A stretch of DNA of 29,429 nt, taken from IMG/VR virus record IMGVR_UViG_3300049432_000168, positions 1-29,429 of that record. One strand, given 5' to 3'. The DNA is from a virus. The notes under the pieces are model-generated. The model was not told where the DNA came from. It searched no databases and worked only from the letters and a program-made list of their open reading frames with translations. Shown here piece after piece: positions 6,748 to 28,440 of this stretch. How positions within the stretch are numbered: position 1 is the stretch's first letter; every line of letters starts with the position of its first letter. Both the position numbers and the translations under genes were made by a program.

Positions 6748-9135
6748 TTACCTGTTCGATCCGCCTTTTGCGCCGCCGACAAAGCCCAGGTCATAGTAAT
6801 TACGAACGTCCTCCTGACCTGCTGATTTTCCGGTGTCTTCTTCTTTTTTAACGTCCGCCGCGCCGCCGGATTTATTGGTGATAATTACTTCAATAGCTTT
6901 ATTCAAGCCTTGCAATCCTTCTTTTTCGGCGATTGCGAGCAGACGCTTGCCGTTAGCGTCAATTTCTTTCTGCACGGCTAATTTTTCCTTTTCTATTTGC
7001 AGAGAATCTCGCTCAAAATTTGCACGCCGTTCGGCTTCCGATTCGGCTGCTGCGGCAATTTTGTTTCTTAAATCGGAATTGATTTCATTCGGATTAAGCC
7101 CGGATGTTAATGAAAGCAGCTTTCGGTCGGCAATCGCTCTTTCTTCGACGTTTGAAATACCCGAATTGATAATGTCAATCTGTTTTTTCAATCTGTCGTT
7201 GAGCGTCAAATCATTATCGCTCTCGCGCAAACGGTCATTTGCTAAAGCGGTTTGCAATGAATTTTGATTAAGATTATTAAAGCTGGAATCAGGCGAATTA
7301 CCGATAAAACCAAGATTGCCAAACATTCGAGTTTCGTAAATATCGCGCTTCTGATTGTCGGTTAATTTATCGAATCCGCCTGCCTGATTAGCTAAGAATG
7401 AGCCGAAAGAGCCGCCGAAGTTGGGGAAAAATCCGCCGGTTTCCGCCGAGCGTCGCGCCACGTCGTCAATCCTTTTTCGTATTGTTTCGGGAGATTCCTG
7501 CGGATTGCGAAAATTGCGAGCGCGTTCTCTCAAATCGAAAATTGATAAATTATTATCAATCCGCGTCTCGAATAGCGCGTTAGATTTTAGTTTCTGCTGC
7601 ATCGCAATCGCTTTTGATTGTAAATCGGCGTCCAATCCTTTTAAGTTTTCGCGAAGTGATTTCAAAGCTTTCTCGCCTTCGCTGAAGACGCGGACGAAAG
7701 GATTATCAGAATTCGTTTTGCTGAAAAGATTGTCGAAGGCGGAATTGTAAGTTTTACCCAGTTCCTCGACTTTTTTCTTTCCGTCTTCAACGGATTTGTT
7801 GAATTTTTCCTGCGCTTTTATCGCATCTTCCTGCGACTTTTTCCAACTATCCCAACGCTGATTAAACGAATCGTTTGACGTTTTTACGCTTTTTTGCTGA
7901 AGGGCGTCAAGCTGGGCGTTAACAGCGATAATTTGATTTTTGAGACGTTCAAAGTTTTCGTTCGGTTTTGAGACGAGTTTGCCGTCTTCGACCGTCGGAA
8001 GATTGGCGGGCGTCAGCTTTAAAAGCTGTTCCAAGCCGGCGCGTTTATTTTTTAATTCTTCCTGCGTGTTCGTTTGCACCGAAGCAGAAAAACGACGGTC
8101 AAAATCCGCTTGTTTTCGCAACTCTTCAAAATCCTTTAACGCTTGTTTCGTTGATAAAATTTGATTATTAACAGCAGCCGAAATCGCGTTTTCGACTTTA
8201 AGGCGTCTTTCGGCTTCTTCACGAATATTTTCAGTTATTTTGACAATCCCGTAACCGACGGCGGCAATCGCGCCGAACGTGGCGAGCGTCGTCATCGAAA
8301 CAGCGTTTACGGCAAGCATTCCCTTGGCTGCGGCGTTAAAAGGACGATTAAACCCTTCGGGCGCAAAATCGTCGGTCAACTCTAAAACCGTCGCTTGAAG
8401 GTCGGTGATGCCCCCGCGCCGACCACCGCCGGAACGCGCTCCGACTTTGCCGCCGCTTTGTCGTTTCTCGTATTGCTGTTGCCTCGAAGAAAGTTTATCG
8501 AAATTATTTTGCGCTTGAACCAGGTCGTTATTTAATTCGTCAATTAAAGTTTTATTGTTTGTTTGTTTGAGCGCGTTGTTGATCCTCAGAATATCGGCTT
8601 GAGTTTTTCCTAATTGGTCATGAAGACGAATACCCGCTTTTGTCAGCCCGTCGAATTTACCCGCGTCAATCCTTTCGGAATTTAATTTTTGAATTTCAAG
8701 CCGTGATTTTTTAACGCTTTCAAAAAGCGCGTTGTCGGGTTTTCCGAATTCTTTAGATTGCAGCGGGTTCGATTTATTCGGAAACAATTCCGGTCTAGTG
8801 GATTGGTTAATTGAGGCTTTTGCCGTGTCAATGCTCGCCGCTATTCTTTCAGACGCGCTTTTGACCAATCTTTCCTCGTTTTCTAAATAACGTGAAATCG
8901 TCGGCGGCAATCCAAAATTTTCGACTTTTGTTTTTAGTGAATCAACGCCGCCAGCGAGCTTACTTACAGCGTCCGTGCCTTTCGTCAGATCGGCGGCAAG
9001 CCCTTGCCCGAAAGTCGGATTTTGACCTAACGAATTAAGTTTAGTGTCGAGATTGACGAGTTTTGTATTGAGCGCATCTATTTTCGCGTCGTCTTTATCG
9101 TCAAATATAAATCTCGTCAAAAGCTCGTTAGCCAT
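6748..9135 (-). CDS. Tail tape measure protein
   Basis: About 795 residues, mostly alpha-helical and coiled-coil, rich in Lys, Glu, Gln, Asn and Leu, with long charged heptad stretches (about residues 20-270 and 320-750). One hydrophobic segment (MLAVNAVSMTTLATFGAIAAVGYGIV, near residues 275-300) is the membrane-insertion segment typical of tape measures. Family role: sets tail length and helps DNA enter the cell. It follows the tail chaperones in operon order but is separated from them by cargo island B. I prefer the ATG at 9135 (MANELLTRF); a longer frame from a TTG at 9171 would begin inside the arm of the upstream hairpin. No Shine-Dalgarno sequence precedes 9135, unlike many other genes here, so the hairpin element may matter for its expression. 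Confidence 0.88.
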   Translation of the reverse strand: MANELLTRFIFDDKDDAKIDALNTKLVNLDTKLNSLGQNPTFGQGLAADLTKGTDAVSKLAGGVDSLKTKVENFGLPPTISRYLENEERLVKSASERIAASIDTAKASINQSTRPELFPNKSNPLQSKEFGKPDNALFESVKKSRLEIQKLNSERIDAGKFDGLTKAGIRLHDQLGKTQADILRINNALKQTNNKTLIDELNNDLVQAQNNFDKLSSRQQQYEKRQSGGKVGARSGGGRRGGITDLQATVLELTDDFAPEGFNRPFNAAAKGMLAVNAVSMTTLATFGAIAAVGYGIVKITENIREEAERRLKVENAISAAVNNQILSTKQALKDFEELRKQADFDRRFSASVQTNTQEELKNKRAGLEQLLKLTPANLPTVEDGKLVSKPNENFERLKNQIIAVNAQLDALQQKSVKTSNDSFNQRWDSWKKSQEDAIKAQEKFNKSVEDGKKKVEELGKTYNSAFDNLFSKTNSDNPFVRVFSEGEKALKSLRENLKGLDADLQSKAIAMQQKLKSNALFETRIDNNLSIFDLRERARNFRNPQESPETIRKRIDDVARRSAETGGFFPNFGGSFGSFLANQAGGFDKLTDNQKRDIYETRMFGNLGFIGNSPDSSFNNLNQNSLQTALANDRLRESDNDLTLNDRLKKQIDIINSGISNVEERAIADRKLLSLTSGLNPNEINSDLRNKIAAAAESEAERRANFERDSLQIEKEKLAVQKEIDANGKRLLAIAEKEGLQGLNKAIEVIITNKSGGAADVKKEEDTGKSAGQEDVRNYYDLGFVGGAKGGSNR

Positions 9136-9149
9136 AGATTTAATGATTA

Positions 9150-9247
9150 AAAAATGCGAAACGCCTTGCAAAATCCTCCCTCGGAAGAAATTGCAAGGCG
9201 TTTAACTCTTGCGGACGTTCTGAAAAAGCAGAACAACTCAAATTGTT
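9150..9247 (-). ncRNA. Two-hairpin RNA element, copy 1 (before tape measure)
   Basis: Read on the minus strand, this has a small hairpin (GTTCTG-CTTTTT-CAGAAC, 9217-9234), a conserved linker (CCGCAAGAGTTAAACGCC), then a 13-bp perfect stem (AAACGCCTTGCAA with TTGCAAGGCGTTT, 9159-9203). The stem contains a TTT/ATTT internal loop and a short inner stem (CTTCC/GGAGG). A T-rich run follows 3-4 bases later. It is the same as 22290-22385 except for changes that keep the pairing, so RNA structure appears to be under selection. It sits at the exit edge of cargo island B, just before the tape measure start. Possible roles: intrinsic terminator, antitermination site or leader. The type assigned is structural, not a proven transcript. 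Confidence 0.7.
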
Positions 9248-9330: not shown

Positions 9331-9858
9331 TTATCTTCTTCTCGCTCTATTCCGCATATGAGGACTAACATAAGTCCCGTTTTTTCGGTAATAACCTTTT
9401 ACCGAAACCGATTTTGAGCCGCTCGAATAGCCGGAAGATGAACTATAATAATCATCGTTTGATGAATAATCGGGAGTTGGCGACGGAGTTGACCAATTAG
9501 GCGATGAATAGTTCGGCGCTACATAAACGTCTTTTGGTTTGCGCGTGATAACCATCGGTTTAAGTTCGGGCGTCGGAGTCGGCGAAGGCTTCTGCGGTAA
9601 AGGCTTGAGTAGTTCCGTATATTCATCAATTTCCGCTTGATTTTCCGCAATTCTTTGTTTTGATTGCAGGTTAAAATTAACAATCAGAACTATGCCTGTC
9701 ACAACGAAAAATACAATCAAAAAATATGTGAAAAATCTCAAGGATGAAGGTTTTTGAATGTTCGGCTTTCGCGATGGAATCGGCAAATAACGCTTGCCTT
9801 GAATCTTTTTCGGCGCAAATTCTTTTAATCCGCTATTGACCCGGTGATGAGGATTCAT
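9331..9858 (-). CDS. Cargo membrane-anchored protein with C-terminal GYYRKNGTYV motif
   Basis: A 175-residue protein: a basic N-terminus, one membrane helix (about residues 42-62, FFTYFLIVFFVVTGIVLIV), a short coiled segment, a Pro-Thr-rich linker (PTPTPELKP, STPSPTPDY), a Ser/Tyr-rich stretch, and a C-terminal VKGYYRKNGTYVSPHMR block. That closing block (GY-RK-GTYV-x-x-H-x-R) recurs at the ends of many bacterial secreted or periplasmic proteins of unknown role. The predicted topology is an inner-membrane anchor with an extracytoplasmic tail. It is not a recognised virion protein and lies in cargo island B after an attC-like repeat. Its leader and first codons are partly duplicated at 28320-28412. 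Start: ATG at 9858, with AAAGGAAAA about 15 bases upstream. Confidence 0.7.
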   Translation of the reverse strand: MNPHHRVNSGLKEFAPKKIQGKRYLPIPSRKPNIQKPSSLRFFTYFLIVFFVVTGIVLIVNFNLQSKQRIAENQAEIDEYTELLKPLPQKPSPTPTPELKPMVITRKPKDVYVAPNYSSPNWSTPSPTPDYSSNDDYYSSSSGYSSGSKSVSVKGYYRKNGTYVSPHMRNRARRR

Positions 9859-9950
9859 TAATTTGATTTTGATTTTCCTTTAGGTAGGTTTCGAGTAGCC
9901 AAATCAATAATAACAGTTCGGGTGAGGGGAAATCAATAGATTTTAACGGG
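9849..9950 (-). repeat. Leader repeat, copy 1 (upstream of the 9331-9858 gene)
   Basis: Read on the minus strand this holds CCGTTAAAATCT, then TTTCCCCTC-A-CCCGAACTG, TATTATTGATT and GGCTACTC, then a spacer and the gene's first codons (ATGAATCCTCATCA). The same order is found on the plus strand at 28320-28412 with only a few substitutions in the central 40 bases. It may carry the promoter of the 9331-9858 gene (TATTAT as a possible -10), but no good -35 is visible. Confidence 0.65.
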
Positions 9951-10861: not shown

Positions 10862-10925
10862 CGGCGGTCTGTATATAATGACTTTTTACCTCGGAATCTT
10901 ACGCATTTTTTGAAAATAATTTCAG
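10862..10925 (-). repeat. 60-bp cargo repeat, copy b
   Basis: On the minus strand it begins AAATTATTTTCAAAAAATG, then GTAAGATT, CGAGGT and AGTCATTA. It aligns with 12280-12340 (minus strand) and 22475-22534 (plus strand). The first half matches best and the second half is diverged. In each copy the repeat lies upstream of a cargo gene and points the same way as that gene. Confidence 0.6.
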
Positions 10926-10970
10926 GCAATAAAAAAAGCTCGTTTAAGCCTCAAATGTAAGTTGAAAATG

Positions 10971-12279: not shown

Positions 12280-12340
12280 CGCTTTTATTAGTAATGCCAA
12301 AACACATCGAAATCTTACGCTTTTTCTTAAAAATAATTTT
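12280..12340 (-). repeat. 60-bp cargo repeat, copy a
   Basis: On the minus strand it runs AAAATTATTTTTAAG, GCGTAAGATTTCGATG, TGTTTTGGCATTAC, TAATAAAAGCG. The last 34 bases differ from the copy at 22475-22534 (plus strand) at a single position, and the motif TCCGCTCGA follows both copies a little downstream. It is the first sequence of island B after the terminator and precedes its first gene. Confidence 0.75.
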
Positions 12341-20008: not shown

Positions 20009-20932
20009 ATTTATTTCTCCTGTATTTTCCGCGCCTGTGAGCGCATTTGATTTACCCTTTCGGGCAAGTTTTTGAACCACTTCCTCGAGACTGCTCGTGC
20101 GGTCAGCCATTTTCACTTTAACGGCATCAATGCCGTTTAAAACGCCGCCTTGATTGAAGTCTTTTTTGACTTGTTCGATTGTCACCTTTCGGTTTCGCGC
20201 GACCGCTTTATGAAAAACATTTTCGAGCGAATCAAGTTCGCGCATCAGTTCGGCGCGATGCTCGTCAATGTCAATATTGAGGCGTTTGAACGGCGCGTTC
20301 GTGGAAGTAACAACTTCGCGCCGAATGCCCATCATCTTGTAAAATCCGGTATCGTCCGTCCAACTGGTAACGACGCCGATTGAGCCTAAAAAAGCGGAAC
20401 GGTCTGCGATAATTTCATCGCAAGCCGAAGCTATCCAATACGCGCCCGAACATCCCAAACCTGAAACGTAAGCCTTAATCGGTTTCGTGCCGCGCGCATC
20501 GTAAATTGCTTGAGCCAGCTCGTTAATTCCGAAGGCTTCGCCCCCCGGCGAATCAATATGAAAAATGATTGAACTGACATTCGGACTGCTCAAAGCCGTC
20601 TGGAAATCTTTGAGCAAGGTTTCGGTCGAAGTTCCGCCGTAACAGATTTCCGCAAAAAACCCCATTCGCTTGGCGATGACGCCGTTCACGTCAATAACGG
20701 CGACTCCGTTTTCGCGTATCTCGACGTAGCGTGTGCCGTTCAGCCGCTCGCCTTTTTTCGCCAGCATCGCGTCGAATTTTATATTTGAATTGTCGTTTTC
20801 ATCGAACTCGGCAGCTTCTAAAATGGCATCAAGACCGTCCGATTCCCGGTAAGCAATCCGGCACAACGAGTCGAATTCCTGTGCGCGACAAGCCCAAAAT
20901 GAAGTTTCGATATAGGTAATTACCCGTTTCAT
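19460..20932 (-). CDS. S49-family prohead protease with C-terminal scaffold domain
   Basis: A 490-residue protein. Residues about 75-300 are an SppA/SohB-type S49 protease: VIDVNGVIAKRM, IIFHIDSPGGEAFGINELAQAI, then VSGLGCSGAYWIASACDEI with nucleophile Ser162, GSIGVVTS, and a likely catalytic Lys at 216 (TNAPFKRLN). Residues from about 309 are the scaffold, which can also be made from its own start at 20008. Family role: cuts scaffold and itself during capsid maturation. The gene overlaps the portal stop by four bases (20929-20932), so portal and protease translation are coupled. Order TerL-portal-protease-decoration-capsid matches lambda-like heads, apart from the cargo inserted before portal. 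Confidence 0.9.
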   Translation of the reverse strand: MKRVITYIETSFWACRAQEFDSLCRIAYRESDGLDAILEAAEFDENDNSNIKFDAMLAKKGERLNGTRYVEIRENGVAVIDVNGVIAKRMGFFAEICYGGTSTETLLKDFQTALSSPNVSSIIFHIDSPGGEAFGINELAQAIYDARGTKPIKAYVSGLGCSGAYWIASACDEIIADRSAFLGSIGVVTSWTDDTGFYKMMGIRREVVTSTNAPFKRLNIDIDEHRAELMRELDSLENVFHKAVARNRKVTIEQVKKDFNQGGVLNGIDAVKVKMADRTSSLEEVVQKLARKGKSNALTGAENTGEINMSFKDDFKTFAVKHGLMSADGNEPQPAASGANEPPQTAAEYGAAAIRANNAERELADLKAEREQERQKQIKTDAENFVADEIKAGRMLPAENKEGEFVSLYIQAAADDAASPLVTGSRLDNLKTIQSKRKTHGLTEESLDPKTGLKILPSEDNPTAELERAAETQAADYVGTITPKLRVVKQ

Positions 20933-22278
20933 TCTTTGTCTTCCTCCGGCGGATTGTTTTGCGGCTGCGGGTCGTCAATCTTTTTGTCTTTGGAGCGCGG
21001 CGTAAAGCCAAGAATCGTGTCGCCTTCGCGCTGGTGTTCGTCAGCCATCCGGTAACCGATTTTCTGCAATGCTCCGGCGGTCGCTTCCCAGTCGCGCCGC
21101 TCGGTATCGCCCAAAGAACAAACGGGCGTAAAATGCGCTTTATCCGCTCCGAAATTAACAATCGTCAAAAGTCGGTAAACGTCGCGGCGAACGGCGTCGG
21201 CAATAATGTTTTTGATTGATTTGACGCGCAGATTAACAACGTCAATCGAAACTTCTTTCGCCGCCTTGACGCCTTTATCGTCTTCGCCGGTTGAAACCGA
21301 ATCGCCTAAGATAGCTTTGCGAATGCCCGAATTGTTGTATTTGAGCGCCTTGACGAACTGCTCGCCGTTGCCTTTGACTTCGAGCTGCCCGATTTCAGTT
21401 CCGTGCGGTGCGGTGACGGTCGAATTGTTGGCGAAGCCTTCGAGCGCGGTCATCAAATCTTTTTCCGCCGAAACCGTTTCCGCGACCCCGCCTTTCATCA
21501 CCGGCTTTCCCTCTTTATCAAAAATCTGTCGCGGGCGCGCCTTTTCCGACGTGATGCCGTATTTCTTCGGAATCGACGACGTGCGGCGCCATTCCTTATA
21601 CTGCTCGCGAGTCAGTTTTTTATCGCACCAATCGTCGTAACCCGCCCGCACCCGGCACACGCCGCGCGGGTCGTTGTCTTCAAGCTCGAACTGTATGATT
21701 AAAAACTTTTCGCGCGGGATAATCTCGTCGCGTTTTTCGCCGATTTCGGTCAGCGAGTAATTTCTATTCCAGCCCGTCAGTCCTAAAACGTTGTTGTGAC
21801 GGTCGCAGACGAACGAAACGGCTGAGTTCGGCTTCGGGTTGATGCGGTCAAGAGCGAGATTGTTTTCATCGTCAAGTTTGAGAACGATTTCACCGCACTT
21901 TACTCCCGAATAAAAAGCATCTCGCGCAACCTCGCGGACGACCGCCGCCAAAGTTCGCGGACAATCGCCGCTCGTCGCCGTTCTGACAAAATCCGCGATT
22001 TCTTTCGCTTGCGGGAAATCCGCGTCTTCGTCATCGGTTATTACCGGAACGGGCGCGATTCCGTCGGCAAAAACGGCATCAAGCAAAAATTCGACCGAAG
22101 ATTCGACTTCCGAATCGTAACGCATTGCGACGCGCGTTTGAGCAGTCAAATTCGGGCGCGTTCGGTCAGTTGATTCAAGCGAGAGCGTTAAGGACTGGTA
22201 AGAACCGCCGCCGCTGACATATTCGCCTTGCAGCTCGGTTTTGTTTAAGTCTTTTGATTTGGTCGCAGGTTGCAACAT
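20929..22278 (-). CDS. Portal protein
   Basis: A 449-residue protein. Family features: an acidic N-terminal part, VAMRYDSEVESSVEFLLDAVFADGIAPVPV, VREVARDAFYSGVKCGEIVLKLD (a common portal pattern, helix followed by W/G-x-E), FLIIQFELEDNDPRGVCRVRAGYDDWCDKK, and a long C-terminal helical barrel region (IRKAILGDSVSTGEDDKGVKAAKEVSIDVVNLRVKSIKNIIADAV). This resembles the DUF935/Mu-gp29-like group of portals. Family role: dodecameric ring at the unique capsid vertex through which DNA is packaged. The ATG at 22278 has no Shine-Dalgarno sequence and is preceded by the second copy of the two-hairpin element, just as at the tape measure gene. It overlaps the protease start. Confidence 0.85.
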   Translation of the reverse strand: MLQPATKSKDLNKTELQGEYVSGGGSYQSLTLSLESTDRTRPNLTAQTRVAMRYDSEVESSVEFLLDAVFADGIAPVPVITDDEDADFPQAKEIADFVRTATSGDCPRTLAAVVREVARDAFYSGVKCGEIVLKLDDENNLALDRINPKPNSAVSFVCDRHNNVLGLTGWNRNYSLTEIGEKRDEIIPREKFLIIQFELEDNDPRGVCRVRAGYDDWCDKKLTREQYKEWRRTSSIPKKYGITSEKARPRQIFDKEGKPVMKGGVAETVSAEKDLMTALEGFANNSTVTAPHGTEIGQLEVKGNGEQFVKALKYNNSGIRKAILGDSVSTGEDDKGVKAAKEVSIDVVNLRVKSIKNIIADAVRRDVYRLLTIVNFGADKAHFTPVCSLGDTERRDWEATAGALQKIGYRMADEHQREGDTILGFTPRSKDKKIDDPQPQNNPPEEDKE

Positions 22279-22289
22279 TAATAAAGTAA

Positions 22290-22385
22290 AAACCGAAAAC
22301 GCCTTGTAAAATCACTATCTTAAGTGAAATTACAAGGCGTTTAACTCTTGCGGGTGTCCTGAAAAAACAGAACAACTCAAATTTT
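22290..22385 (-). ncRNA. Two-hairpin RNA element, copy 2 (before portal)
   Basis: On the minus strand: a hairpin GTTCTG-TTTTTT-CAGGAC (22356-22373), the conserved linker CCGCAAGAGTTAAACGCC, then a 13-bp perfect stem (AAACGCCTTGTAA with TTACAAGGCGTTT, 22297-22342). A TTT/ATTT internal loop and inner stem CACT/AGTG follow the same layout as copy 1. A GC pair of copy 1 is an AT pair here on both arms, and the inner stem differs in sequence but still pairs. The small hairpin has a U-G pair that forms only in minus-strand RNA. It is adjacent to the portal start and at the island A edge. Confidence 0.72.
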
Positions 22386-22474: not shown

Positions 22475-22534
22475 AAAATTATTTTCAAAAAATGTGTAAT
22501 ATTTCGATGTGTTTTGTCATTACTAATAAAAGCG
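22475..22534 (+). repeat. 60-bp cargo repeat, copy c
   Basis: Plus-strand sequence AAAATTATTTTCAAAAAATG, GTAATATTTCGATG, TGTTTTGTCATTAC, TAATAAAAGCG matches the minus-strand copy at 12280-12340, with one difference in the last 34 bases. It lies at the start of island A in the same direction as the first cargo gene (22743-23705). Confidence 0.75.
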
Positions 22535-22742: not shown

Positions 22743-23705
22743 ATGGATATAAATACTTTAACACCAAGCCTCGAAAATCTGGTTGATTTTCTACAAAGGA
22801 ATCCGAATGCCGTACTAGTTGTCTTTATCGTTAGCGCTGTTGCAAACATTATTCAAATAGGCACATATTTTCGTGACAGACGACGATTGCGGGAACAGAA
22901 CTCTGAAAGCCAGAAACTCATTAAGTTAGTAGATACATACGAATATATTCTGAACATTGCTCAAAAGAGCCTGGATACGGAAGACAAGCTAGTCGAGGTC
23001 GAGAAAGATATTAACTTAAAAAAGCAGCAAGTAAATGAACTCAACGAACGAATTAAAATGGTGCAGGAGGAAGCCCAACGCGCATTAGTGTCACAGGCAA
23101 TAGAATACAACCTTGGCGTGCTAAAGGAAGCTTATGAAGAAATCACAAGACTGCGCGAGCAATATAATAGTCTGGGAGAACTACCCAAAGTGCTTGAAGC
23201 GAGTCGAGAAATAATAGAGGAAGAAGTACAGATTGCTGTTAAAAGACCTTACGATCTTCCACGCCCGTTCACTTTTAGAAGCGCATTAATGGTATTACTG
23301 ATCATTCTTGTGCCAGGTCCGCTGCTGGGTTTTATTATTCCATTTCTTGCCCAACCCTTGATTATAATCTTCGTGGAAGCAATATCTCTCTTTCCTAATG
23401 AAAGATTGCAGGGATTTGTGCGGAAAAGGCTTTCTCTGCTCGGCTATATAACCGTTCTCTTAGCTTGGAACTCCCTAATTTCATCAATCCTATTCTTTAT
23501 CGGTCTACTGGTTCCGCCCAGTTTATTTCCGCCCAGTTTATTATTAACCGAGCAAGTATCGAATATTCCTTATTTTCTATTCCTACCGCTAAATTTGCTC
23601 ATTTCATATCAGCATTGGCGTATCATACGATCTGATGTACATAAAGCTGCCAGTAAAATGTTATCCAATTCCATACAGAGCCCACCTAAATCTAAAATGC
23701 GATAG
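22743..23705 (+). CDS. Cassette-encoded membrane protein with coiled coil
   Basis: A 320-residue protein: one membrane helix (about residues 22-42), a long coiled coil (about 50-165, rich in Glu, Lys and Gln), then three or four further membrane helices (about 180-212, 232-258, 274-290). Topology predicts a cytoplasmic coiled coil between membrane anchors. I know no family. A tandem duplication of 15 bases (encoding PPSLF-PPSLL, near residues 258-268) is visible. The gene is immediately followed by a well-formed attC, so gene plus attC form a standard integron cassette of roughly 1.2 kb. Its base composition is more AT-rich than the virion genes. Function could be defence or envelope-related (inference from cargo context only). 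Confidence 0.75.
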   Translation: MDINTLTPSLENLVDFLQRNPNAVLVVFIVSAVANIIQIGTYFRDRRRLREQNSESQKLIKLVDTYEYILNIAQKSLDTEDKLVEVEKDINLKKQQVNELNERIKMVQEEAQRALVSQAIEYNLGVLKEAYEEITRLREQYNSLGELPKVLEASREIIEEEVQIAVKRPYDLPRPFTFRSALMVLLIILVPGPLLGFIIPFLAQPLIIIFVEAISLFPNERLQGFVRKRLSLLGYITVLLAWNSLISSILFFIGLLVPPSLFPPSLLLTEQVSNIPYFLFLPLNLLISYQHWRIIRSDVHKAASKMLSNSIQSPPKSKMR

Positions 23706-23732
23706 GAAAGATTATTAACGCTACTCACAGGC

Positions 23733-23835
23733 GTCTAACAACTCATTCGACCGGAGCGCGAATAGCGCGGCTTTCACCCGATAGCTTGAATGCTTGATAC
23801 ATTGAATGCGCGCTCGGTCAATTCGGGCGTTAGGT
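23733..23835 (+). other. Integron attC recombination site
   Basis: Inverse core GTCTAAC (23733-23739) and core GTTAGGT (23829-23835) both fit the RYYYAAC/GTTRRRY consensus and pair through CTAAC/GTTAG. Between them GACCG-G-AGCGCG pairs with CGCGCT-CGGTC, leaving one extrahelical G as in functional attC sites, with a ~45-base variable loop. The site follows the stop of the 22743-23705 gene by 25 bases. No integron integrase gene is in the window. Confidence 0.78.
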
Positions 23836-24031
23836 GTTTCTTGAAAAGAAACTGAACGACAAGATTGTTTATTTGAAAACTAAGACGTTTCGCGTAAAAA
23901 TAAACTTGTGCGAAGTGAAACGGCGAGTTGGATGTTGCACGAACTGTCATGCAATGGTTCATCGCTTTAAATACAAGACTCTTTCGCTTGAAGAATTAAG
24001 AGAAATGGTGTTGAGGTCTTTTGCATTTTAG
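23834..24031 (+). pseudogene. HNH-endonuclease C-terminal remnant
   Basis: A 65-residue frame from a GTG overlapping the attC end. Its second half reads CEVKRRVGCCTNCHAMVHRFKYKTLSLEELREMV, typical of the end of an HNH nuclease (C-x-NCH-x-MVHR, then L-S-x-EEL). The first half lacks the usual preceding ββ metal-binding part (E/D-x-HH), so it is a fragment, probably left by cassette recombination or a deletion. It ends just before the Vsr-like gene. Translation as such is uncertain. Confidence 0.5.
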
Positions 24032-24071
24032 TAAGGCACTACTAACTCTGAATTTAAATTTGGTTGTAAAA

Positions 24072-24542
24072 ATGATTAAAAAAACTCCTTCATATAAAGG
24101 CTTAAAGCCAGCATCGGAATTGGCTTCACGAATTAAAAGTAATAATTCTCGAAGCGATACTAAGCCTGAGCTGCTGCTTAGAAGCGAGCTATGGCGTAGG
24201 GGGTTGCGCTTTAGGAAAAACGTAAGAACATTACCAGGAAAGCCTGATATTGTATTTAATAAAGCTAAAATTGCAATATTTTGTGATGGAGATTTTTGGC
24301 ATGGGCGTAATTGGGACTCAAGAAAAACTAAGCTGGCAAGCGGTACAAATCCTGAATATTGGATAGCAAAGATTACGGCAAATATTGAGCGTGATAAGCG
24401 TAATACAAATCTTCTAGAAGAATTAGGCTGGTATGTGATCAGAGTTTGGGAAGGCGATATAAAGAAAAACTCAAAGTCAATAGCAGGTAATATTGAGAAA
24501 ATTGTTAAAGATGAAATAGCGGGTAATAATTCTCAAATTTAA
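24072..24542 (+). CDS. vsr: Vsr-like DNA endonuclease, variant without zinc ligands
   Basis: A 156-residue protein starting MIKKTPSYKGLKPAS. The family pattern is clear: SDTKPELLLRSELWRRGLRFRKN (E33), LPGKPDIVFNKAKIAIF (D59), DGDFWHGRNW (H77), EYWIAKITANIERDKRNTNLLEELGWYVIRVWE. In E. coli Vsr the active residues are E25, D51 and two histidines, and zinc is held by Cys/His. Here the CFWHHHHC part reads DFWHGRNW, so the zinc site and one active His are missing, as in the large DGDFWHG subgroup. Canonical role: nicks 5' of T at T:G mismatches made by 5-methylcytosine deamination. It sits with a C5 methyltransferase, so a mismatch-repair or restriction role is possible. The ATG at 24072 is chosen over the upstream start at 24021, as family homology begins there. 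It converges on the putative nuclease gene. Confidence 0.82.
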   Translation: MIKKTPSYKGLKPASELASRIKSNNSRSDTKPELLLRSELWRRGLRFRKNVRTLPGKPDIVFNKAKIAIFCDGDFWHGRNWDSRKTKLASGTNPEYWIAKITANIERDKRNTNLLEELGWYVIRVWEGDIKKNSKSIAGNIEKIVKDEIAGNNSQI

Positions 24543-24575
24543 CAGTTTTAAGGACAATCATAGTGACCAGTCAGG

Positions 24576-25514
24576 CTATTCATCAATTTTAGGTAAAGTT
24601 CTAATTCGAGGCTCCAGCCAAGTAATAACTCTTTCTTTAAGAGAGTCAGACATCCAATTAGGGTTATCATGTCCAACAGAAAGCAGCCTATATCTGTCTA
24701 GCAATAAGCCGTTTACTTTGCGGCATTTTTTAGGAAAATCACTCTCAGATAATGCAAAAGGCATTGAAAATGCTCTTTTAGGATCAGATGCCCAATCAAT
24801 AATTTTTGTCCATAAATCTAAGTCAGGAGTTTTTAGCTTAGTCTCCCAGTTACCGCCGCTTGCACATTGCATGAGAAACACCGGCTTGCCTACACGCTTA
24901 TCTGCAAAAGGACGATAGCAAATTAAATCGAGACCTAATTCATTTGCTGTTGCATCCACCCATCGGCTGACACTTCCTTGTGTCTCATCCAAACGATTTG
25001 CAATATCATCAAGCACGTCATTTATTGTTACTGGATTATTTTTTGTCCAACCTGTTGGATGTATTATCCAACCCGGTAGGAAGGCTTTCATTGCTTCTTT
25101 CGTTAATTCCTCAAAAATCTCTCCTTGTTCTGTATAATCAGAGCCAAATGTGCTTGCCCATCTTGGATACCACTGTAAATAAGAAAGTATAATACAAAAG
25201 CTATATCCAGGTACTTCATTCCACGACTTAATACGTGATAACCTCTTAGCAGACATTTTAATTGGTAAGGAAGCAGCATCACCTAGTAGCATAAAGCGTC
25301 GCTTTAATTCAGACCATACAATATCAACCATTTCCATAGCAAAATCTTGATCGGTATAAATTGCATTTTCTTTTAGAACATCAATGACATCTGTTGTTGA
25401 CATCTCCTCTACGTCAATCAAGATGTTGCCTTCTATCCAGTCACATAAAATATCAGAATTAATATTATGTTTTCCAATAGACCGTCTCATGCCTACGATG
25501 GGAAGTTGTAGCAT
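24576..25514 (-). CDS. Putative restriction nuclease of the methyltransferase operon
   Basis: A 312-residue protein I do not recognise with certainty. A possible PD-(D/E)XK layout is seen: E132/E135 (QGEIFEELTKEAM), D196 in GLDLICYRPF, then a strand VFLMQCASGGNW where Q216 would be the E/Q of the third position. The usual Lys two residues later is Ala, so the catalytic Lys must come from elsewhere or the fit is wrong. It starts directly after the ParB-like stop (TGAATG), so the two are translationally linked. The place after methyltransferase and ParB-like genes points to a restriction component. The last residues converge with the Vsr-like gene, with 33 bases between stops. Confidence 0.6.
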   Translation of the reverse strand: MLQLPIVGMRRSIGKHNINSDILCDWIEGNILIDVEEMSTTDVIDVLKENAIYTDQDFAMEMVDIVWSELKRRFMLLGDAASLPIKMSAKRLSRIKSWNEVPGYSFCIILSYLQWYPRWASTFGSDYTEQGEIFEELTKEAMKAFLPGWIIHPTGWTKNNPVTINDVLDDIANRLDETQGSVSRWVDATANELGLDLICYRPFADKRVGKPVFLMQCASGGNWETKLKTPDLDLWTKIIDWASDPKRAFSMPFALSESDFPKKCRKVNGLLLDRYRLLSVGHDNPNWMSDSLKERVITWLEPRIRTLPKIDE

Positions 25515-26621
25515 TCAGCATTCATCCTCCATTAATTCTTCACGTATAGAAGGGAATATTCGTAATAATTGAAATGTATCTATACCCAATCTCTCAACTG
25601 AGTCTTGCAATTCTTTAGACTGTTTGTAATGGTGTGCTGTTGATAATGCTTCTTCAATATTGTCTGAAGCAGAATCAATTAGCTTAATAAGTTCTGGCTC
25701 ATCACCTCCTGCAATTCGATACGCGGTTTCAAAAATAGGTCTTTCAGATCGCTCAAGATATTCCAATGCTTCTGGACTATTAAGAATTACACCAAACTCA
25801 TGAACATAACGAGATTCAGGAACCAAAGGAGGACGCTGATCATCGCCAAAAAGCCAGAGGGCAAATTTTGCTAGCTCATCAAGCTTATCTTCAGGAACAG
25901 GACGTTGTGCCGCTTCAGGAGAAGTTCTCATATCAATCTGTAAATAACGCTGTGCTCCTTCGGTTTTGAGGGACAAATATAAGACGCTGAATTTTTCTTC
26001 TACCCTACTGAGAGAAATATCCTCTTCTTCCTCCATTTGTATCAAGACGCGATACGAGATATAGTTCTCCCTCACCGTAGCTGTCTTGCTGCCAATTTTA
26101 CGCATGACTTCTTCATAAGTCATACCCCTTTCTTCAATTAGCTTTGTAATGTATTCAGCTTTTTCAGCAGGATTCCATTCTTTTATACCCGTAACATGCC
26201 GAAATCCCAAAAACGCCTCTACATCGCTTCGAGAATCCGCCTTGATATATGGAATTTGCTCAAAAAGATTTTCTGGTGGGGCTTTGATGGCAGCAAGGTC
26301 AGCCCATTTTCTTGAAATGGGCTGACCTTCTATAGCAAGCTTCAAATACTTCAATGCCGCTAACCGGCGATTCCCCTCAATTACTGTAAGTGACTCTCTT
26401 CCATAAAGAGGCTCGTTAACAACTATAAGGGCTTCCTGAACCCAAAAGCCGCTTTCTAAAAACGAAATGGCTAACTCATCTAATGTCCAGTCACGCATTA
26501 GCTCAAGAACTTTTTCCTGACTGACATCAGGACCTTTATTGCTTCGTCCTAATCGGGGGTTCAGCGGATCAAGATAAAGCTCATCAATTGTCGCGTACCT
26601 TATCTGATTGTCTAATGCCAT
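25515..26621 (-). CDS. ParB/Srx-like DNA-binding protein of the restriction operon
   Basis: A 368-residue protein. Residues about 5-95 are a ParB/sulfiredoxin-type domain (LDPLNPRLGRSN..., then VIEGNRRLAALKYL at 80-93, matching the ParB EGxRRxxA pattern that in true ParBs binds CTP). FRHVTGIKEWNPAEKAEYITKLIEE (140-164) recalls the ParB segment after that domain, followed by a helix-turn-helix (GMTYEEVMRKIGSKTATVRENYISYRVL). The C-terminal half is helical and acidic. There is no partner ParA, so plasmid-type partition is unlikely. In this cluster it may be the DNA-recognition or loading subunit for the adjoining nuclease (inference). It follows the methyltransferase stop by about 70 bases. Start: ATG at 26621. 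Confidence 0.7.
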   Translation of the reverse strand: MALDNQIRYATIDELYLDPLNPRLGRSNKGPDVSQEKVLELMRDWTLDELAISFLESGFWVQEALIVVNEPLYGRESLTVIEGNRRLAALKYLKLAIEGQPISRKWADLAAIKAPPENLFEQIPYIKADSRSDVEAFLGFRHVTGIKEWNPAEKAEYITKLIEERGMTYEEVMRKIGSKTATVRENYISYRVLIQMEEEEDISLSRVEEKFSVLYLSLKTEGAQRYLQIDMRTSPEAAQRPVPEDKLDELAKFALWLFGDDQRPPLVPESRYVHEFGVILNSPEALEYLERSERPIFETAYRIAGGDEPELIKLIDSASDNIEEALSTAHHYKQSKELQDSVERLGIDTFQLLRIFPSIREELMEDEC

Positions 26622-26690
26622 TTTTTTAATTGATTCTCTTAATAATTAATAACTTCTTTGTCTATATTTGTCATTACAGGTTGCCTAGTC

Positions 26691-28025
26691 TCAAGCTACT
26701 TGAGATAAGGGAAGTCTTGCTTGCCGAAAAATCTTTATTTTCTTAACTTCCGCTGAGTCTAACAATCTTTCCGCTATAATCTTTACGATTCGTGAATTAA
26801 CCGCATTGCCTAATGCATTAAAAGCGGCGGTTTCATTCTCAGGCAGCTTAATTCCTTCGAGAGCCTGGAGTTTTAATCCCTCTTCTTTTGTAATGTATCG
26901 CTGTTGCCAACCGATAATTGGAATTTGGGTCGTAGTACAAACTAGTGAAGGGAAAAAATCAACCTTTTTTACTCTTATTCCTGAAGCCCTAAACTGTAAA
27001 ATATAGCTTGAAATTTTACGCTCGGAATCACCAACATTCCATTCTAATTTTTGCCAATTTTGGAAAGGCTTTTCAGCGATTTTCTTAACAACCTGCCAAA
27101 GATGTTTTTCATGTTCAATGTAAAACTCTCTGCATTGTTTAATCCATTTTTTCTTCCAATCGGGAAATTCTTTTTCGACTCTTGCATAGCTTGGCAACTT
27201 GTTAAGCTGCTCTTTTTTCGCCAACCCTTCTAAGCTACAGCCAAAATTTCCCTTGTACTTTGAAAGTTCCTTTGCTGTGAGATGGTAAGGAAAAGTTTCT
27301 TCAAACGGATAAGTTGCTCCGAATTCCATTGCCCAAATTGGAAAGCCTGGAATCTTTGTTTCTTTAGGAATACAATCAATAAATTCTTGCCACAGCTTTA
27401 TACAGTCCTGCTTTTCTTTTGAAAGTAGCTTGAAATTTGTTGGATTCTTCTCGATGAATTGATTAATATCAATCAAATTCACTCGTTGTTTATCAATTTC
27501 ATCAAAATCAAAATGATCAAGTCCTTTAAGTGAGCCAACAATAAAAATTCTTTTCCGGTGTTGCGGAATTCCAAAATCATGCGGTGAATAGTTTCGATAG
27601 TCAACGGTGTAATCTAATTTTTCCAACTCCGCCTTTATATATTTCAAAGTTTCTTCGTTGTCATGCTTCGCAATAAACGGAACATTTTCGAGAATAAAAT
27701 ATGAAGGTCTTCGGTAATCAAGAATTTTTACAATCTCATCAAATAAAGTACCTCTATCTTCATCATCTCTGCCTAATTGTTTTCCTGCCTTTGAAAATGG
27801 TTGACACGGAAAGCCCGCACACAAAATATCATGAGCAGGAATACTTTCAATTTCTTTCTCAACAATTTTTCTAATGTCTCCTTTTGGCTCTATTCCCCAA
27901 TTCTGCTTATATAAATCTCGTAATACAGGATTGATTTCACTTACAAACACACAATCGTGCCCAAGTTGATTTAATGCTTTGTGAAAACCACCTAATCCGG
28001 CGAATAGATCAATAAATTTTGCCAT
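26691..28025 (-). CDS. C5-cytosine DNA methyltransferase
   Basis: A 444-residue enzyme with motifs in normal order: I (DLFAGLGGFHKAL, residues 6-18), IV with catalytic Cys74 in GFPCQPFS, VI ENV (113-115), VIII QHRKRIFIVGS (155-165), and IX/X (LQALEGIKLP... FNALGNAVNSRIV, near 395-425). Between VIII and IX lies a long target-recognition region. It transfers methyl from SAM to C5 of cytosine in a specific site. It heads the minus-strand cargo operon with the ParB-like and nuclease genes, after the terminator at 28165-28200. Together with the Vsr-like gene these form a restriction-modification-like set. The target sequence cannot be read from the protein. Confidence 0.93.
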   Translation of the reverse strand: MAKFIDLFAGLGGFHKALNQLGHDCVFVSEINPVLRDLYKQNWGIEPKGDIRKIVEKEIESIPAHDILCAGFPCQPFSKAGKQLGRDDEDRGTLFDEIVKILDYRRPSYFILENVPFIAKHDNEETLKYIKAELEKLDYTVDYRNYSPHDFGIPQHRKRIFIVGSLKGLDHFDFDEIDKQRVNLIDINQFIEKNPTNFKLLSKEKQDCIKLWQEFIDCIPKETKIPGFPIWAMEFGATYPFEETFPYHLTAKELSKYKGNFGCSLEGLAKKEQLNKLPSYARVEKEFPDWKKKWIKQCREFYIEHEKHLWQVVKKIAEKPFQNWQKLEWNVGDSERKISSYILQFRASGIRVKKVDFFPSLVCTTTQIPIIGWQQRYITKEEGLKLQALEGIKLPENETAAFNALGNAVNSRIVKIIAERLLDSAEVKKIKIFRQARLPLSQVA

Positions 28026-28261: not shown

Positions 28262-28412
28262 GCGCAACAAGTTATTGGACGCGGAAGGTGAAACAGCGAC
28301 TCTGTTATTGCTAATCACTCCCCGATAAAACCTGCCCGTTTCCCCTCGCCCGAACTGATATTATTGATTCGGCTACTCAAGTCCTGCCCGTAACGAAATC
28401 CTCATCAATTAA
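28262..28412 (+). repeat. Second, inverted copy of the attC-like/leader repeat (decayed)
   Basis: On the plus strand: GCGCAAC (28262-28268), then TTGGACGCGGAAGG and CAGCGACT like the minus-strand site at 10971-11044. Next come CCGATAAAACCT, TTTCCCCTC-G-CCCGAACTG, TATTATTGATT and GGCTACTC, as at 9892-9950. At the end ATCCTCATCA matches the first codons of the 9331-9858 gene, whose reading frame then stops matching. It looks like the 5' remnant of a second copy of that cassette, at the TerL-side edge of island A and opposite in direction. The 28201-28440 spacer contains no gene. Confidence 0.65.
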
Positions 28413-28440
28413 AACAGTAAAATATCTCTCGTTTAATTTG

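Follow-up and report, generated by a model that had tools for sequence, protein, structure and literature searches.

A two-hairpin RNA element occurs in two copies on the late-gene (minus) strand of the window, by which we mean the whole 29.4 kb virus record analysed here, and six copies in three phages were found in total. We lean slightly towards interpreting it as a transcription attenuator that acts in cis from the 5' leaders of late operons. In its favour are an upstream hairpin (P1), a second putative hairpin (P2) that overlaps a terminator-like stem, and a placement at operon starts, which is the anatomy of ANTAR-type leaders. The anatomy, repetition, covariation and position of the element are evident from comparison of the nucleotide sequences.

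Two copies in the window

Copy 1 (9148-9235) and copy 2 (22286-22374) are both encoded on the minus strand and are spaced 13.1 kb apart. An earlier note on this DNA had described two similar copies about 13 kb apart with a common linker. They were 90% identical over the best 61 nt, and the linker sequence CCGCAAGAGTTAAACGCC was present exactly twice (9197-9214 and 22336-22353), compared with an average of 0.04 in shuffled sequences. Conservation between the copies begins at AATTTGAG and stops just beyond the long stem, and the flanks are unrelated. Folding z-scores were -6.2 and -6.5, and none of 200 shuffles folded equally well. A sequence-free descriptor consisting of P1, stem and U-rich tail detected both copies and one other site in the window, versus 0-1 sites per shuffled window.

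In both window copies, read from 5' to 3', a P1 of 6-7 bp closed by a 6 nt loop comes first. A linker of 12 nt leads from it to a 13 bp stem, which continues through a 2x2 U internal loop into an inner stem; the U-rich tail and the ATG follow. The upstream hairpin was correctly recognized in the earlier note, its size being 6-7 bp rather than the 6 bp given there. In copy 1, P1 (9216..9235, UGUUCUG-CUUUUU-CAGAACG) was assigned by the predicted fold and the pairing in six copies. It is followed by the linker UCCGCAAGAGUU (9204..9215), whose segment A (GCAAG, 9208-9212) pairs with 9193-9197 to give the putative antiterminator hairpin P2 (A:B, 9193..9212), a post hoc assignment with a conserved apical GAGUUAAACGC. 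The terminator-like hairpin (9159..9203) has a 13 bp outer stem, the 2x2 U internal loop and a 6 bp inner stem, and the U-rich tail CGCAUUUUUUA (9148..9158) scored 2.84, which was equalled by 2.8% of random positions. In copy 2, P1 is predicted at 22355..22374 (UGUUCUG-UUUUUU-CAGGACA), the putative P2 at 22332..22351 (GCAAG 22347-22351 with CUUGU 22332-22336) and the terminator-like hairpin at 22297..22342, where a 2x2 U internal loop separates an outer stem of 13 bp from an inner one of 5 bp. Its tail UCGGUUUUUAC (22286..22296) scored 3.64, equalled by 0.7% of random positions. The covariance model matched copy 2 at 22374-22286 with 102 bits, copy 2 itself being part of the model. All of these features are on the minus strand, where the C-G to U-A swap described previously in the long stem was also present. 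The inner stems of the two copies differ in sequence but keep their pairing, again as claimed, and copy 2 has in its P1 the U-G pair that is indeed possible in the minus sense only. The loop of copy 1 contains GAGGGAGGA ahead of an in-frame TTG, which we read as accidental because copy 2 lacks it.

Copy 2 precedes the portal gene (20929..22278, minus strand), whose start lies 18 nt past the stem and whose identity was supported by PHROG 113 (E=2e-21). Copy 1, located after a cargo insertion, precedes a gene at 6748..9135 (minus strand, ATG at 9135). The proposed name of this gene, tape measure, is putative and is based only on its length and its position among tail genes, no family match having been obtained in profile searches. 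Neither ATG, at 22278 or at 9135, is preceded by a Shine-Dalgarno sequence, in agreement with the earlier note.

Cargo genes are also located between terminase and portal (22743-28025). They encode a C5 cytosine methyltransferase (26691-28025), a Vsr-type endonuclease (24021-24542, plus strand), a ParB-like protein (25515-26621) matching PADLOC PD-Lambda-5_A/PDC-M38A, and a neighbour of no assigned function (24576-25514). This region is likely a defence or modification island. A 60-nt intergenic sequence recurs at 12280-12339, 10876-10937 and 22475-22534 (85% and 76% as inverted arms), each reading toward a cargo gene, and is possibly a shared cargo promoter region. A 93-nt inverted repeat pair (9858-9950 and 28321-28413, 73% complementary) lies in or at the edge of two cargo regions.

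Copies in related phages and their covariation

The homologous structure that the earlier note had called for in related phages was found as four additional copies in two phages, IMGVR_UViG_3300037833_000028 and the MAG contig JAGXTF010000107.1. The former was reached via its portal protein (76% identical) and carries one copy before portal and one before a gene assigned to the endolysin type by family matches. The latter was reached via its capsid protein, and its two copies, near-identical over 100 nt, are located before portal and before the orthologous endolysin (46% identical). JAGXTF010000107.1 (L011/L033) comes from a Bacteroidetes MAG bin and represents the same virus as IMGVR_UViG_3300001798_000017 (L034) from another dataset, the two being identical over 15.7 kb. 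This virus, in its two records, was the only one added by protein searches for further relatives.

All six copies share a 6-7 bp P1 with a 5-6 nt loop, a linker and a 12-14 bp stem that leads into two U runs. A late gene has its start codon 18-32 nt past the stem; this gene is portal in 3/3 phages, endolysin in 2/2 and the putative tape measure in one, the window. The endolysin count refers to the phages whose record covers that region, as the window record lacks the region upstream of terminase. In both relatives the first copy separates the early/replication region from the first late gene and lies before endolysin (with a RusA resolvase upstream in one of them), and the second copy lies before portal. 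This early-to-late junction position and the pairing between linker and stem were both beyond the earlier note.

The sequence-free scan for P1, stem and U tail recovered 6/6 copies and, in the real phages, a few other sites; each shuffled phage gave 0-2 hits. A covariance model trained on three copies retrieved a fourth, left out of the training, at E=5e-11; the remaining two, which are the most distant, were weak matches (E of 0.02 and 0.11). When 296 genomes of the MAG's phylum were scanned with this model, three terminator-like matches without a good P1 were obtained. The exact pattern had no match in viral or genome contigs, gapped DNA patterns matched only IMGVR_UViG_3300037833_000028 and 16 sites judged to be chance, with less certainty for one in L026, and BLAST of the element against phage records gave no match. 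In another virus of 93 kb (L026, 1350-1430), a hairpin and a GAGTTAAACGCCCG stem lie between structural genes, which may be chance.

Pair counts over the six copies were made on a hand alignment, since MAFFT failed to align P1 across phages. In P1, 41/42 cells were paired and 6/7 pairs had changed on both sides; for the long stem (B:C) all 72 cells were paired, with changes on both sides in 8/12 pairs. The two long stems of IMGVR_UViG_3300037833_000028 are almost wholly different in sequence and both pair. In the three-copy alignment 97% of positions were paired and 11 pairs had two-sided changes. The corresponding count was 4.0 for shuffles and 1-3 for slid versions, and none of 500 shuffles reached the real value. 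The six copies represent only four independent lineages, one of them with a one-base register shift. The 2x2 internal loop is at the same height in 4/6 copies despite the sequence differences. The P1 hairpins of one phage resemble each other, but those of different phages do not (loops CUUUUU, UUUUUU, CUUCU, CAUUCU, CCGAGU and CGGAGU), the alignment of P1 across phages being by position and not by sequence homology. Taken alone, the long stem could be that of any terminator. It is stable and GC-rich and is followed by a U tract, which is interrupted after 3-5 U.

Two other identities were rejected by inspection. GTTAAAC fits the GTTRRRY core of an integron attC site, but there is no partner box and the motif is in the wrong place in the stem. 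A leader peptide of 17 codons in JAGXTF010000107.1 is not conserved elsewhere.

Linker-arm pairing and competing readings

In 6/6 copies, segment A of the linker, which directly precedes AGUUAA, can pair with arm B, the 5' side of the long stem; the A/B pairs are GCAAG/CUUGC, GCAAG/CUUGU, CGAG/CUCG, CUAUCG/CGGUAG, ACAAG/CUUGU and GCAAG/CUUGU. By the same hand alignment of six copies, 29/30 cells of A:B were paired and 4/5 pairs had changed on both sides; where the stem was replaced by CGGUAG, the linker had changed too, to CUAUCG. The resulting P2 has a conserved apex, GAGUUAA[AG]CGC or AUCAACAACGC, and is separated from P1 by 2-5 nt. P2 and B:C are mutually exclusive, having arm B in common. 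Stepwise folding predicted P1 and P2 side by side before the 3' arm is made, followed by displacement of P2 by the long stem, with predicted energies of -23 to -30 kcal/mol for B:C versus -2.5 to -7 kcal/mol for P2.

The A:B duplex energy gave p=0.003 against shuffled linkers and p=0.018 against the genome background, with p below 1/4000 for the hairpin energy. With fixed geometry, p was 0.004 by shuffling and 0.005 versus 58 other terminator-like hairpins. The pairing was noticed before testing, and the joint p of about 0.004 is post hoc. A 5 bp helix of P2 geometry is found in 22% of ordinary terminator-like hairpins, among which the P2 energy is not unusual. The overlap of P2 with the terminator 5' arm, as in ANTAR leaders, is moderately supported.

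From this arrangement we infer termination, read-through and a late factor. P1 would fold first during transcription, and then P2, by pairing of linker A with arm B around the conserved GAGUUAA[AG]CGC apex. If P2 were held, the B:C stem would be blocked and polymerase would continue into the portal, endolysin or tail genes. If not, B:C would displace P2 and, together with the U tail, stop transcription just ahead of the start codon. The default state would be off, because the much more stable B:C is expected to displace P2 unless P2 is held. All copies would be turned on together by a late factor that holds P1/P2; this factor would probably be encoded by the phage and recognise the phage-specific P1. 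The constancy of P1 within a phage and its difference between phages suggest such a phage-specific factor. By position only, two small CxxC zinc-ribbon-like proteins are candidates. One, of 67 aa, is encoded by the nearest gene upstream of the first copy in JAGXTF010000107.1 (L011:68-271); the other, of 74 aa, is encoded upstream of the first copy in the other relative (L004:690-914), with a cargo gene between. Neither matched a Pfam or PHROG family, and they are not clearly homologous to each other.

A plain intrinsic terminator would end the upstream unit, either moron cargo or the early region, and shield the late genes, with P1 and linker as passengers and late transcripts arising from low-efficiency read-through or an internal start. 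The terminator-like stem and U tail agree with this, as do the cargo genes, on either strand, upstream of 4/6 copies and the stem look-alikes that end host genes (two of the three closest in other genomes are at gene 3' ends). However, P1 is kept with covariation in 6/6 copies, the 18-32 nt between stem and start codon are too short for a normal promoter, and the near-identical 100-nt blocks of JAGXTF010000107.1 precede two different genes, the portal copy having no adjoining cargo. We consider this explanation unlikely. In that portal copy, TTGACA-17-TATTTT ends where the block common to the two copies starts; neither the window copies nor those of IMGVR_UViG_3300037833_000028 are preceded by a recognisable Bacteroidota-type (TAnnTTTG) or sigma-70 promoter. 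Because this copy has promoter-like hexamers but no cargo, and an insulator needs neither P1 nor a covarying linker, an insulating terminator can account for only part of the element. The same hexamers, with about 100 nt from there to the terminator-like stem, would suit a multi-copy small RNA gene (promoter, hairpin and terminator) ending by chance before late genes. This is hardly credible, as the same late genes are preceded in different phages and no promoter was seen at the other copies.

Two adjacent hairpins near operon starts, in several copies per phage, could also be a put-like cis antitermination RNA, in which P1 and P2 (or P1 and the long stem) bind polymerase and confer resistance to downstream terminators with no protein factor. 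It is improbable, since the long stem ends in a U tail, the operons are late and not early, and the P1 and stem sequences are wholly different between phages, while a polymerase-binding RNA should keep its contact bases. In a leader for mRNA processing or stability, the long irregular hairpin would be a substrate of an RNase III-type enzyme or shield late mRNA at its 5' end, much like the hairpins at T7 gene starts. The internal loop kept at the same height and the location directly before start codons are consistent with such a role, but it needs neither the U tail, nor the conserved GAGUUAA, nor the linker-arm pairing, and we regard it as equally improbable. The start codon so near the U tail also fits a translation role, namely a leader in place of the Shine-Dalgarno sequence (a U-rich standby site plus hairpin). 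The Shine-Dalgarno sequence is absent at 6/6 downstream starts and the capsid genes have AAGGAG; against this, many other genes of these phages also lack one, the spacing varies and P1 is unexplained, making this account very unlikely. The roles proposed in the earlier note were in the right area: the evidence favours a combination, a terminator-like stem that competes for its 5' arm with an antiterminator hairpin upstream, over a put RNA or an insulating terminator.

Comparison with known systems

The sequence hallmarks of ANTAR leaders, put and the Rfam families are missing from the six copies, and no Rfam family matched above its gathering score. HK022 put RNAs form two stem-loops of about 70 nt below early promoters, in two copies per genome (PMC9378689). 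The element is similar in having two adjacent stem-loops in phage leaders and differs in that put belongs to early operons, is factor-free, has different stem details and has no U-tailed stem described. Identity with put is ruled out by the late-gene position and the U-tailed terminator stem of the element. The ESAS/SAS sequences of mycobacteriophages are repeated inverted repeats just upstream of several phage start codons and differ between subclusters (PMC3203893); they consist of 17-bp repeats with a 13-bp Shine-Dalgarno-like motif and belong to non-structural genes, unlike the element.

In ANTAR-responsive leaders (eut, nasF, amiE), P1 is followed by P2, the distal arm of P2 shares bases with the proximal arm of an intrinsic terminator, and several copies precede different genes of a genome (PMC3369936). 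The element is alike in this P1-P2-terminator anatomy and in its multiple copies per genome. However, A1 and G4 are required in the loops of both ANTAR hairpins, whereas the P1 loops and P2 apex of the six copies lack this combination, and the element sits in phage late operons. The ANTAR domain (PF03861) had no match in the three partial phage records and none in control genomes either. In LicT/BglG RAT, a protein holds an antiterminator hairpin that cannot coexist with the terminator (PMC3369936). Two asymmetric internal loops interrupt the single RAT hairpin, while P2 as predicted is uninterrupted or has one bulge and comes after a separate P1. The dfn leader of LoaP, at the head of long operons, carries a small hairpin ahead of an intrinsic terminator (PMC12691694). 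It is a looser likeness than ANTAR, since dfn has a UNCG-type hairpin and serves host biosynthesis operons, and no such loop was found in the element.

In lambda, the terminator tR' before the lysis genes keeps the late operon off until antitermination by Q. The first copy in both relatives, at the replication-to-late junction, occupies the site of the Q-controlled terminator of lambda-type phages. Q acts at late genes (PMC7171158). Lambda Q is loaded at a DNA element, whereas the signal of the element is apparently RNA and is repeated before later operons. Phage_antitermQ (PF06530, the one Q family covered by the scan) had no match in the three partial records, with positive controls.

For most phages beyond a handful of models, no late switch is known. 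A leader that recurs at each late operon and is recognisable by structure would reveal the means by which such phages keep lysis, head and tail genes in step once cargo has split the late transcript, and the late-operon leader would be a ready reporter for finding its factor. The boxB sites differ between phages, as P1 of the element does. Tentatively, the copies may belong to a class of phage late-gene switches in which a P1-P2-terminator RNA at each late operon would be read by a dedicated phage RNA-binding factor, the P1 target having diverged in each phage as in the case of N and boxB.
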